From Gemmatimonadota bacterium (GTDB lineage Bacteria; Gemmatimonadota; Gemmatimonadetes; Gemmatimonadales; Gemmatimonadaceae), in the NCBI GenBank assembly GCA_016871855.1, contig VHBQ01000002.1, positions 57,836 through 121,835 on the forward strand: 64,000 bases of DNA, read 5' to 3'. The notes beneath the pieces are model-generated. The model searched no databases. It was given only the letters and a program-made list of their open reading frames with translations, and was not told the DNA's origin. Positions 22,588-64,000 of this stretch are shown here, in pieces; within the stretch, counting starts at the first letter, position 1, and each line of letters opens with the position of its first letter. The translations under genes and the position numbers were made by a program.

Positions 22588-22624
22588 CCACCGTCTACCG
22601 TCTACCGTCCACCGTCTGCCGTCA
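22588..22624. repeat. Heptamer array (CCGTCYA units), upstream of the deaminase and downstream of tmRNA
   Basis: ccaccgtctaccgtctaccgtccaccgtctgccgtca; 7-bp period. Confidence 0.85.
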
Positions 22625-23076: not shown

Positions 23077-23208
23077 ATGGACCGAGGATCACGATGCAGG
23101 ATAACGACTTAGGAACCTGATGGTCGATCGCCAATCTCCATCCGCATTCGCAATCCTCAATCGCAATCCTCGGTCCAAGTCCTCAATCGCCGGCCTCGGT
23201 CCAACCCC
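23077..23208. repeat. Dispersed palindromic element copy 1 (AATCCTC/GGACCGAGGAT family)
   Basis: ggaccgaggat (23079-23089) is a perfect inverted match to atcctcggtcc (23166-23176); closely related sequence at 48511-48640. Confidence 0.85.
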
Positions 23209-28638: not shown

Positions 28639-30191
28639 TCGATCGTCGCCGGCGGCTTGGAGCTGATGTCGTACACCACCCGGTTGACGCCGCGCACCTC
28701 GTTGATGATGCGGTTCGAGATGCGGCCGAGCACATCCTGCGGAAACGCGAACCAGTCGGCGGTCATGCCGTCCGTGCTCGTCACCGCGCGCAGCGCGACG
28801 ACATTCTCGTAGGTCCGGCCGTCGCCCATCACGCCCACCGAGCGCACGGGGAGAAAGACCGCGAATGCCTGCCAGATGGCGTCGTACAATCCGGCCGCGC
28901 GAATCTCCTCGAGGTAGATGGCGTCCGCCTGCCGCAGCGTCTCCACGCTCTCGTAGTCCACCTCGCCCAGCACGCGGATCGCGAGCCCGGGTCCCGGGAA
29001 CGGATGCCGGCCGACCATCTCCTCGGGCAAGCCGAGTTCGCGTCCGACGTTGCGCACCTCATCCTTGAACAACTCGCGCAGCGGTTCGATGAGCGTGAAG
29101 GCCATGTCCGGCTTCAGCCCGCCTACGTTGTGGTGCGTCTTGATGGTCGCGCTTGGGCCGCCCTTCGCGCTCACCGACTCGATCACGTCGGGATACAACG
29201 TCCCCTGCACGAGGAACTCCGCCCCTTGGCCTTCGCGGGCGGCCGCTTCCTCGAACACGTCGATGAACGTATGGCCGATGATCTTGCGCTTCGTTTCAGG
29301 ATCTCGCACGCCAGCGAGCGCCCCAAGGAAACGGTCCTCGGCGCGCACGGTCACGAGCTTGATCCCCAGATGCCGCCCCATCGTGCGCTCCACCTGCTCA
29401 CGTTCGTGGAGACGCAGGAGCCCCGTGTCCACGAAGATGCACGTCAGTTGATCGCCGATCGCCTTGTGCACCAGCGCCGCCGCCACTGACGAGTCCACGC
29501 CGCCCGACAGCCCGCAGATCACATGGCGGTCGCCAACGAGCGCTCGGATCTTCGCCACCTCGATGTCGATGAAGTGACCCGGCGTCCAGTCTGGCGCGCA
29601 GCCGCAGACGCCGAACAGGAAGTTCTGGATGATCTCCGGGCCGCGCACCGTGTGCGCGACCTCGGAATGGAACTGGATAGCGTGAATCGGCTTCGACTGG
29701 TGCCGGAAGCCAGCGATCACCCGGTCCGAGCGTGCCGTGACGATGTACCCTGGCGGCGGCGCCTCCACGTGGTCGCCGTGACTCATCCACACGATGGTCT
29801 TCTCGCCCGCGTCGAACCCCGCGAACAGCCCAGCGGGCTCAACCACCTGCACGTCGGCGCGTCCGTACTCGCGCCCGCCGCCCGCCACCACCGCCCCACC
29901 CTCGGCGTGCGCGATCCACTGCATGCCGTAGCAGACGCCGAGAATCGGCGCCAACTCGAGGATGCCCTTCTCGAAGGCGGGCGCCCCATCGTCCGTGACT
30001 GAACTCGGCCCGCCAGACAGGATGATGCCCGAGGGATTCCACGCGCGAATCCACTCCAGTGAGCGCGTGGGCGGATGGATCTCGCAGTACACGTGCGCCT
30101 CGCGCACGCGCCGCGCGATCAACTGTGTGAACTGCGACCCGCAATCAAGAATCAGTATGCGCGACACGAAAGGCCCGTTGAGATCCGCCAT
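28629..30191 (-). CDS. guaA: GMP synthase (glutamine-hydrolysing)
   Basis: [61 protein letters not shown]. Confidence 0.97.
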
Positions 30192-30264
30192 CTGCCATCA
30201 GCCATCTGCCATCTGCCATCCGTCGTCTACCGTCCACCGTCCACCGTCTACCGTCCACCCTCTA
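30189..30264. repeat. Heptamer array filling the intergenic gap: CATCTGC units followed by CCGTCYA units
   Basis: ccatctgccatcagccatctgccatctgccatccgtcgtctaccgtccaccgtccaccgtctaccgtccaccctcta; runs from the guaA start codon to the stop codon of the upstream gene. Confidence 0.88.
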
Positions 30265-37168: not shown

Positions 37169-37289
37169 CGGAACGGGGAGGGGGTAGAGGCGTGGGGACG
37201 AGGGCTGAGGAGGGTGAAGAGGGACGCGCCCCCTCGCACGTTCCGCTACCCCACCCTCGTCCCCTCGCCCCTACCCCCTCCCCGTTCCG
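37169..37289. repeat. Long inverted repeat, G-rich left arm / C-rich right arm
   Basis: Arms 37169-37204 (cggaacggggagggggtagaggcgtggggacgaggg) and 37254-37289, complementary with only a few mismatches. Confidence 0.88.
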
Positions 37290-37295
37290 CGCTGC

Positions 37296-42999: not shown

Positions 43000-43032
43000 C
43001 AGAGGGCCCGGCGCCCCGCGCCGGACCCTCTG
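43000..43032 (-). terminator. Hairpin downstream of ald
   Basis: cagagggcccggcgc ccc gcgccggaccctctg. Confidence 0.65.
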
Positions 43033-43038
43033 TTGTTT

Positions 43039-43075
43039 CTGTCGTTCTCTGTCGTTCTCTGTCGTTCTCTGTCTC
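43039..43075. repeat. 10-bp tandem repeat (TGTCGTTCTC x3+) abutting the ald stop
   Basis: tgtcgttctctgtcgttctctgtcgttctctgtctc. Confidence 0.85.
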
Positions 43076-44187: not shown

Positions 44188-44332
44188 AGTATGATCGCGA
44201 GTTGAAAGGTCTAGGTAATGCAACGCTTAATTCTACCACAGGACCCGGAAAGCCGGACACTCGTTTTTCCCCTAGGCGGAGTCAGGCAAACTCCCGTGGG
44301 CCGTTCAGTGCGTGGCGCGGTTGCCTCTCGTC

Positions 44333-44394
44333 GCCCGTAGCCCGTCGCCCGTCACCTATCGCCCGTCTCCCGTCTCCCGTCTCCCGTCTGCCCC
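44333..44394. repeat. Heptamer array (CNCCCGT units) with a G-quadruplex motif on the minus strand
   Basis: cgtcgcccgtagcccgtcgcccgtcacctatcgcccgtctcccgtctcccgtctcccgtctgcccc. Confidence 0.88.
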
Positions 44395-45721: not shown

Positions 45722-45768
45722 TCCACCGTCCACCGTCCGCCGTCCACCGTCCACCGTCCACCGTCTAT
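45722..45768. repeat. Heptamer array (CCGTCCA units)
   Basis: tccaccgtccaccgtccgccgtccaccgtccaccgtccaccgtcta. Confidence 0.88.
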
Positions 45769-48510: not shown

Positions 48511-48642
48511 GACTTAGGAAATGGACCGAGGATTCCGATTCAGGACCCCGACCACGGAGGGAGATTGGCGATCCGAAGCGAATCGCCCATCGATGTCCGC
48601 AGTCGCAATCCTCAATCGAAATCCTCAGTCCAAGTCACAAAT
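48511..48642. repeat. Dispersed palindromic element copy 2
   Basis: Shares atggaccgaggat, gacttaggaa and tcgcaatcctcaatcg[a/c]aatcctc[a/g]gtccaagtc with the copy at 23077-23208. Confidence 0.85.
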
Positions 48643-48643
48643 C

Positions 48644-55911: not shown

Positions 55912-55998
55912 GACGGTAGACGGTGGACGGCTGACGGTAGACGGTGGGAGTCACCGGGGTGGCGGAGACTACCGTCTACCGTCCACCGTCTACCGTCC
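55912..55998. repeat. Inverted pair of heptamer arrays (GGTAGAC/GGTGGAC)
   Basis: gacggtagacggtggacgg... (55912) and its reverse complement ...ccgtccaccgtctaccgtc (to 55998). Confidence 0.88.
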
Positions 55999-59698: not shown

Positions 59699-61224
59699 TC
59701 ACGCGTCGCGCAGCCCTTGCTGCCGCGCGAGACGCGCCCACGGCGAAAGCTCCGGCCGCGACAGCTCGTCGGCCTTGCCGGCCGCGCCTCCTGCCGCGCG
59801 CGGCGAGCGCCGGCGGCGGTCGCGATCAGCGAGCAGGGCCGCGGCGATCGCCGCGGACTCCACCTGATCCCGCGGCACCGGCGCCGCGAGCAGCGAGTCC
59901 AACCGGCGCTCCAGCCACTGGATGTCGATGGCGCCGCGTTGGAACTCGTCATCCTCCATCACGCGCAGGTGGAACTCGCGCGAGGTCTCGATCCCCTGGA
60001 TGGTGAGTTCGTCGAGCGCGCGCCGCATCCGGGCGATCGCCTCGGCGCGCGTCGGCGCCCACACGATGAGCTTGGCGAGCATCGGGTCGTAGAACAGCGT
60101 GACTTCGCTCCCCGTGCCGACCCCGCTGTCCCAGCGTACGCCCGGGCCGCCGGGGAGGCGCAGGTAGTCAATGCGTCCGGTGCTCGGGAGGAAGCCGTTC
60201 GAGGTGTCCTCGCTGGTGATCCGGCACTCGATGGCCCAGCCACGCGGCTCGATCGCCGACGTGAACGGCAGGCGCTCGCCTCGGGCAATCCGCAGCTGCC
60301 ACTGCACCAGGTCGATGCCGGTCACCATTTCGGTCACGGGGTGCTCGACCTGGATGCGCGTGTTCATCTCGAGGAAGTAGAACTGCCCGTTGGGCGCGAG
60401 CAGGAACTCGCAGGTGCCGGCGTTCTGGTAGCCGGCCGCCTTCGCCACGCGCACCGCCGCCGCGCCCATCGCCTTGCGCAGCTCGGCGTTGACCGCCGGG
60501 CTCGGCGCCTCCTCGATCATCTTCTGGTGGCGGCGCTGCACCGAGCACTCGCGCTCGCCGAGCGACACGCAGCGTCTATGCTGGTCGGCGAGCACTTGGA
60601 TCTCGACGTGCCGAGGCCCCTCGATGTACTTCTCCACATAGACGGCGTCGTCGCCGAAGGCGTTCTTCGACTCCCGTCGCGCCGCCTCGAGCGCGCCGGC
60701 CATCGCGGCGGCGTCACGCACGACGCGCATCCCCTTGCCTCCGCCGCCGGCTGCCGCTTTCAGCAACACCGGATAGCCAAAGCGCTCCGCGATCGCCAGC
60801 GCTTCGGCCGCGTCGCGGAGCGGCTCTGTGGTCCCCGGCACCACCGGGACGTCGTGCGCCAAGGCCAGCGTGCGCGCCGCGATCTTCGATCCCATCGCGG
60901 CGATCGCCTCGGCTGGCGGACCGATCCAGATCAGCCCCGCCTCGCGCACCGCGCGCGCGAACCACTCCCGCTCCGAGAGGAAGCCGTAGCCCGGATGGAT
61001 GGCGTCGGCGCCGACTTCGCGGGCCACCGCGATGATCCGGTCTCCGAGCAGGTAACTCTCGCTCGACGGCGGCGGCCCGAGCCGCACCGCCTCGTCCGCC
61101 TCCCGCACGTGCGGCGCGCGCGCATCGGCGTCGGAGTACACGACCACCGACGGGATTCCCAACTCGCGGCAGGCGCGGACGACGCGCAGCGCAATTTCCC
61201 CGCGGTTGGCGATGAGGACCTTTT

Positions 61225-61228
<4 letters not shown>
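59699..61228 (-). CDS. accC: Biotin carboxylase subunit of acetyl/propionyl-CoA carboxylase
   Basis: [65 protein letters not shown]. Confidence 0.96.
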
Positions 61229-62775
<1,547 letters not shown>

Positions 62776-62831
62776 GGACTAGAAACAAACGCCGCGCGGG
62801 GTGGGGGGGAAGGTCGGGGGCTCGATCCTCA

Positions 62832-63000
62832 GTGCAGGGTGAAGGGAGCCGAGTGGGGTGCAGGGTGAAGGGAGCCGAGTGGGGTGCAGGGTGAAGGGAG
62901 CCGAGTGGGGTGCAGGGTGAGGGGAGCAGAGTGGGGTGCAGGGTGAAGGGAGCAGAGTGGGGTGCAGGGTGAAGGGAGCAGAGTGGGGCGCAAGGGGGCG
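62832..63000. repeat. 26-bp tandem array, about 6 copies (GGGTGCA GGGTGAA GGGAGCA GAGTG)
   Basis: gtgcaggg at 62832, 62858, 62884, 62910, 62936, 62962: exact 26-bp period. Confidence 0.93.
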
Positions 63001-63068
63001 GGGTGCAGTGTTTGGTGACGAGTACACGGAGCTGAGTGGGATGCCGGGTCCGCCGCCCCTCCTCCGTG

Positions 63069-63207
63069 CCCTGCACCACACTCCGCTCCCTGTTCCCTGC
63101 ACCCCACTCTGCTCCCTGTTCCCTGCACCCCACTCTGCTCCCTGTTCCCTGCACCCCACTCCGCTCCCTGTTCCCTGCACCCCACTCTGTTCCCTGCTCC
63201 CTGCACC
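63069..63207. repeat. 26-bp tandem array in inverted orientation to 62832-63000
   Basis: Repeated ccctgcaccccactctgctccctgtt, the reverse complement of the left-array unit with small changes. Confidence 0.93.
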
Positions 63208-63219
63208 TCGGCGCGCGAC

Positions 63220-64000
63220 TCAGCGCTCAAACCCCATCCCGTCCATAAGAACTGTCCCCGCCGCCGTCCGGTCGAAGACAAACCGCACGGCGCGCACCTG
63301 CGCGGCGCGGAAGCCGGGCACATCGCGTTCGAGGCGGGCCAACGGGATCGCATAGCGTGTCAGCACCTGATCGTAGTCGCGCGACGACGCGCCGAAGCGA
63401 CGCTCCGGTCGTCCCCACTTGTACAGTCGGATCGTCAGCGGCGGCGGCAGCGGATTGAGTTCGCTCAGCGCGACCGAGGCGGTGCGACCGTCGGCTGTCT
63501 CGAGCTCAACGCGAAAATCGAGAACGACCACGGAGTCGGCATCCCCCTTCTTCCGGCGCGCGGCGCTGTCACCGGCCGGCTCCTTCTTCGTGTCGCCTCC
63601 GCGCTTGGTGGCGCCGGACGCCTGCTTCGCGCTGTCGGAGGCCTGCGCGGAGTCTGGTGGACCGCGACGCAGCCAACCGGGGAGCCATCCCCAGCGTGAG
63701 GGACGCGGCATCGGCCCCACGGCGGGCGCGGTGTCGGCCGCCGCAAGCGGGCGCGGCGTGTCCTTCTCTGCCTGCACCTCGAAGACGAAGGTGCTCTGCG
63801 CGTCGAGCGACAGCGCCTGCGCCACGGAGTCCGTCCACTGCACGACATAGCGCGCGGTCGGCTGCCCCGCCTTGGGCTTCGCCCAGCCGAGGCGCACGAC
63901 GTGATTCTCGTACGGGCCGCCGCCGCGCGAGCGCATCGTCAACCCCAGCTCGCGCCAGGTGGCCAGCCCCTCACCGGCAATGCGCACGCCGCGCGAGGCG
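63220..64000 (-). CDS. Hypothetical protein, partial (N-terminus off the window edge)
   Basis: Open minus-strand frame to the window end with a Lys/Ala/Ser-rich central linker; family not recognised. Confidence 0.6.
   Translation of the reverse strand, partial: ASRGVRIAGEGLATWRELGLTMRSRGGGPYENHVVRLGWAKPKAGQPTARYVVQWTDSVAQALSLDAQSTFVFEVQAEKDTPRPLAAADTAPAVGPMPRPSRWGWLPGWLRRGPPDSAQASDSAKQASGATKRGGDTKKEPAGDSAARRKKGDADSVVVLDFRVELETADGRTASVALSELNPLPPPLTIRLYKWGRPERRFGASSRDYDQVLTRYAIPLARLERDVPGFRAAQVRAVRFVFDRTAAGTVLMDGMGFER

Follow-up and report, generated by a model that had tools for sequence, protein, structure and literature searches.

The closest described counterparts of the repeats reported here are the quadruplex heptads GGGAATC and GGGGA(C/T)T of Xanthomonas and Nostoc (Rehm et al. 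2015, PMC4692102). The G-rich strand of these repeats has its 5′ end mostly 0-50 bp from an ORF of either direction, convergent inverted pairs occur in Xanthomonas (70 in one genome), and the neighbouring genes are mostly the same in sister species while length and sequence vary; the repeats are generally not linked to mobile elements and have no known function (PMC4692102). Two further systems are looser parallels, more distant than the Rehm repeats. The TAACTGA heptad repeats of Beggiatoaceae are short tandem repeats that, like the arrays described below, lie directly at ORF edges with positions matching in close strains, but they sit mostly just upstream of starts, are not G-rich, have a 7-bp unit and have been proposed to act in translation (PMC4679880). 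The 49 dispersed GGGACCG four-heptad elements of Geobacter metallireducens share dispersal, G-richness and tandem units with our arrays and differ in occurring also inside genes and in their 7-bp unit (PMC2700814).

We analysed an inverted pair of G-rich arrays in the window, i.e. the whole 64,000-nucleotide stretch of DNA, together with the repeat family to which the pair belongs. With the Rehm repeats these arrays have in common the G-rich sequence, intergenic dispersal, a G-strand 5′ end that abuts an ORF, inverted pairs, mostly conserved neighbour genes with varying length and sequence, and the lack of a tie to mobile elements. The unit here is 26 bp with G-runs spaced 7, 7 and 12, against 7 bp in the Rehm repeats, and the heptad parse proposed in an earlier note on this DNA fits only part of it; because of this unit length we treat the arrays as a variant of the Rehm-type repeats and not as a member. 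They differ also in having species-specific unit dialects, in the replacement of one family by another at the same sites, in being frequent between divergent genes, where Rehm repeats are under-represented, and in all likelihood in the phylum of the host, whose genome probably resembles those of Gemmatimonadota. A search of the literature on repeats in Gemmatimonadota found nothing on such arrays.

Architecture of the Inverted Pair

The 444-bp gap between two genes (62776-63219) is mostly filled by the two inverted arrays, which are laid out with their neighbours as follows.

61225 to 62775, minus strand: carboxyltransferase gene (PF01039), start at 62775, downstream of the array pair
62776 to 62831, minus strand: leader of 56 bp, from the left array to the carboxyltransferase start
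62832 to 62992, plus strand: left array, 6.2 copies of the 26-bp unit GTGCAGGGTGAAGGGAGC[C/A]GAGTGGGG, G-rich on the plus strand
62993 to 63068, no strand: spacer (loop) of 76 nt separating the two arrays
63069 to 63207, minus strand: right array, 5.3 copies of 26 bp, G-rich on the minus strand
63220 to 63999, minus strand: upstream ORF, stop at 63220, cut by the contig end

Tandem Repeats Finder (TRF) gave a period of 26 for both arrays, with 97% match in the left and 94% in the right, and with an inverted-arm search it confirmed the array coordinates, unit, 26-bp spacing and inversion first claimed in the earlier note. The 5′ end of the right array, GGTGCAGGGAGCAGGGAACAGAGTGGGG, lies 12-13 nt past the stop of the adjoining minus-strand ORF, which has no Pfam match and has an orthologous ORF in four congeners (G001, G002, G006 and G009; the genome of the window is labelled G000, and G005 is a further array-bearing genome). 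The leader carries GCGTTTGTTT, found again upstream of the start in congeners. Next after the carboxyltransferase gene come a biotin carboxylase gene (59699-61228) and, further on, a biotin-carrier gene.

The capacity for a hairpin of more than 130 bp was borne out, with inverted arms at 62857-62995 and 63069-63207 that are 139 nt long, 84% complementary and 73 nt apart. Folded as RNA, the gap (62776-63219) has a minimum free energy of -315.5 kcal/mol, with a z-score of -16.6 against dinucleotide shuffles. This potential long hairpin arises because two arrays face each other, and since both arms are built from one unit family they pair automatically, so that compensatory changes cannot argue for conservation; on this ground we did not accept compensatory pairing as evidence that selection maintains the hairpin. 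The hairpin may serve as a transcript processing or pausing point, which the persistence of the family does not require. Rfam placed the pair below the gathering threshold; its matches were to miRNA precursors alone and often fell on both strands, which is what a long hairpin would produce.

Quadruplex potential had been noted on both strands. The arrays do present G-rich strands in both directions (G4Hunter +1.37 and -1.32), but neither holds a quadruplex motif with loops of 1-7 nt, and the three and two motifs that they contain appear only when loops of up to 12 nt are allowed. Across the family, 44/50 array starts match the four-tract quadruplex pattern with loops up to 12 nt, and 19/50 with loops up to 7 nt.

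A Dispersed Family Nearly Confined to One Genus

The G000 assembly (2.99 Mb, 159 contigs, 85.6% complete) contains the 26-bp unit at more than 40 places according to a DNA search. A sequence model built from 25 array starts gave 85 matches, several of them inside one array, and merging these by eye left about 50 intergenic sites. The typical copy is ~80 bp long (2.5-3 units) and consists of one GTGCAGGGARCAGGGARCAGAGTGGG-type unit, one or two GTGCAGGGKGAAGGGAGCAGAGTGGG-type units and a ragged G-rich tail. Inverted array pairs occur at about ten sites, and the window pair is the longest among the sites seen in G000; the feature is real, yet ordinary within its genome. A 25-base unit pattern matches 61 times in G000, 2-14 times in each of six congeners and once each in 4 of the ~140 further genomes of the order, in agreement with the DNA search, and plasmids gave no match to the repeat. 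The family is essentially restricted to its genus.

Dispersed intergenic repeats that sometimes form inverted pairs are familiar from REP/BIME elements, which are associated with RAYT transposases. The arrays resemble them in dispersal and in inverted pairs; they have neither a RAYT link nor a hairpin within the unit. A REP/RAYT- or MITE-like mobile element with the ends GGTGCAGGG...CCCTGCACC would account for very similar dispersed copies, a sharp conserved end and some copies in inverted pairs, but we consider it improbable. A Y1 (PF01797) transposase gene is broken in G000 and partial in G006, and none was found in G001, G005 or G009, all of which are rich in arrays; on this distribution we rejected a RAYT/Y1 link. 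A MITE is bounded by inverted repeats at both termini and flanked by a target-site duplication, and most copies here show one terminus and, by eye, no consistent target duplication. The recurrence of array positions across species, described below, also speaks against mobility. The broken gene lies at L089 (G000:C122:489-845), where a TAG stop interrupts a Y1-type transposase, the only one found in G000.

The window holds several other repeats. Inverted heptad arrays (GACGGTA)n and (CTACCGT)n share one gap at 55912-55997, with the stop of the following minus-strand gene ~11 nt away, in a geometry like that of the 26-bp pair with a different unit. A further inverted pair, GGAACGGGGAGGGGGTAGAGGCG.../...CCCCTACCCCCTCCCCGTTCC, lies at 37180-37295, and akin sequence occurs elsewhere in G001 and G006, including the orthologues of L045. 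Short tandem arrays with 7- and 10-bp units (e.g. ACCGTCY, CCCGTCK and CTCTGTCGTT) are present at 30183-30264, 44325-44393, 45722-45765, 22590-22623 and 43028-43074, several of which end precisely at the stop codon of the adjoining minus-strand gene (30261, 43074, 44393). A second ~26-bp family, CAATCGCAATCCTCGGTCCAAGTCCT, directly adjoins start or stop codons and is found at 23132-23208 and 48590-48643 as well as at L047, L053, L071 and L072. Other intergenic inverted repeats, of the TTACCACGGATTACGCGGATC...GATCCGCGTAATCCGTGGTAA type, were seen in G006 (L147, L149, L156).

Polarity at ORF Edges

Genes were called by a home-made codon-usage script trained on stretches of the genome DNA, and polarity was measured for 48 arrays as the distance from each array end to the next ORF. 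The median distance to an ORF is 6 nt for the end at which the G-rich strand has its 5′ terminus and 121 nt for the opposite end, and the former is closer in 39/48 arrays (p=1.5e-5). Between divergent genes, with starts on both sides and terminators not involved, this end is closer in all 12 (12/12, p=0.0005); between convergent genes there is no polarity (4/7, p=1). With the G-strand 5′ end anchored at the ORF, the sense strand is G-rich after stop codons and C-rich before starts.

Nine arrays begin right at a stop codon. TAG often precedes an array, but it accounts for 42% of the stops of called genes, and a stop-codon target preference was rejected (p=0.27). By eye, terminator-like hairpins lie 3′ of the array at L047, L058, L062, L065, L071 and L072, which places the array there between stop codon and terminator. 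The arrays themselves do not look like intrinsic terminators, i.e. a GC hairpin directly joined to a U-run, as solo arrays have no inverted arm and the hairpins are separate.

Retention of Sites and Turnover of Units

At the window site the same two genes enclose an inverted pair in G001, built of a different type of unit, GTGCAGGGGCAGGGGCACGGTGTA, and in G009 one with yet another unit sequence, GGGTGCAGGGTGTGGAAAGGGAAGGGG. In G006 a short C-rich remnant lies between the two genes, and in G002 both genes are present and the array is absent. These data bear on the concern, raised with the original description, that the region might be an assembly artefact or lack an inverted copy. The assembly is fragmented (159 contigs) and the site lies ~0.8 kb from a contig end, but independent congener assemblies, including that of G001 (30 contigs, 99% complete), show G-/C-rich inverted pairs there too and the family occupies many sites in G000, which makes an artefact extremely improbable.

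The comparison was extended to 19 more array sites of G000, whose neighbouring genes we sought in G001, G002 and G006 and located as far as possible. With loci chosen from G000 arrays, and some comparisons resting on one flank only, a G-rich array was present at 11/19 orthologous sites in G001, 6/16 in G002 and 11/16 in G006; among control intergenic regions the counts were 3/39 for G001 (Fisher p about 7e-5) and 5/39 for G006 (about 9e-5). Recurring arrays lie on the same strand in nearly every case, and L044, L064 and L070 again show facing pairs in at least one congener. At L043, L045 and L072 another G-rich repeat occupies the place of the array in G001, and several orthologous sites have no array though their genes are intact.

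The mean 6-mer Jaccard index is 0.30 between loci in G000, a value inflated because loci were picked for having a G000 array, 0.16 for the same locus across species and 0.15 for different loci across species; the arrays of G001 are themselves heterogeneous (0.13). Units at a shared locus thus resemble each other no more than units of unrelated loci do. Many boundaries again have a G-rich array on the same strand in congeners, with its unit sequence changed, lost or replaced.

Copy number was compared in the single near-relative pair available, L074 and a public contig, L077 (VGVB01000117.1), where the arrays align at 70/72 letters with a one-base gap and equal copy number, although the flanks are ~8% divergent. 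L077 is a 1285-bp contig labelled Gammaproteobacteria that carries the repeat of this genus next to a glucan phosphorylase-like gene ~92% identical to that of G000, and it is probably misbinned.

The earlier note had hinted at phase variation, in which slippage in the pair would switch the carboxyltransferase gene. Slippage of the long window copy is plausible, as arrays with 94-97% identity can slip and unit number varies between species. A family present at ~50 sites, congeners that keep, replace or lack the array, and the equal copy number of L074 and L077 do not support such a switch, which we regard as very improbable. The maintenance of G-rich repeats at many shared gene edges while their unit changes points instead to a version of the known gene-flanking class.

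Discussion

We propose, with a probability of about 0.6, that the window pair is an enlarged member of a dispersed family, specific to the genus, of G-rich minisatellites that are strand-polarised, embedded in UTRs and turned over by slippage and recombination. To account for the observed position, polarity and unit turnover of the arrays, we infer slippage, gene conversion and selection. The arrays would form part of transcription units, as G-rich tracts of 3′ UTRs before the terminator and as C-rich tracts of 5′ leaders, where replication slippage would lengthen and shorten them and recombination between copies would spread and homogenise the unit. Selection would keep the orientation least harmful to mRNA, such that no G-rich RNA stands just before start codons. 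In an inverted pair, a G-rich array anchored at the stop of the upstream gene would face an array in the leader of the next gene. The lack of polarity between convergent genes, the choice of loci by their G000 arrays and the heterogeneity of the G001 arrays count against this proposal.

The arrays could alternatively be functional elements in which a G-quadruplex, R-loop or hairpin in the UTR tunes mRNA decay, termination or translation and is kept by selection at given genes. The strand polarity, the fact that several species have a G-rich array at one and the same boundary and on one strand although its unit has turned over, the substitution of other G-rich families at L043, L045 and L072, and the matching placement rule reported in Xanthomonas and Nostoc are consistent with this idea. 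Against it stand the orthologous sites without arrays beside intact genes, including the window site in G002, the few GGG runs in G001-type units, and the failure of Rehm et al. to find a regulatory role for their repeats. We consider such gene-specific function rather doubtful, and a role of the arrays in mRNA stability or termination is possible.

The arrays are best described as a variant of Rehm-type G-rich ORF-flanking repeats, in which the retention of sites despite unit turnover stands out. Only tentatively, and as a reading less likely than not, we suggest that in this genus it is ORF edges and not repeat sequences that are inherited, with a polarised G-rich array staying in place while its unit is rewritten or swapped. 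If so, there would be either selection for G-rich 3′ and C-rich 5′ UTR tracts of any sequence or a genome-wide homogenising machinery; the latter would be gene conversion or a co-evolving binding protein, acting alike in unrelated phyla. The same odd placement rule, the G-rich strand leading away from the ORF, is seen with unrelated units in Xanthomonas, Nostoc and this genus, which suggests a common cause that species comparison can test. Where one sister species has an array at a gene edge and the other lacks it, the two form a natural pair in which any effects on transcription and mRNA decay can be compared.
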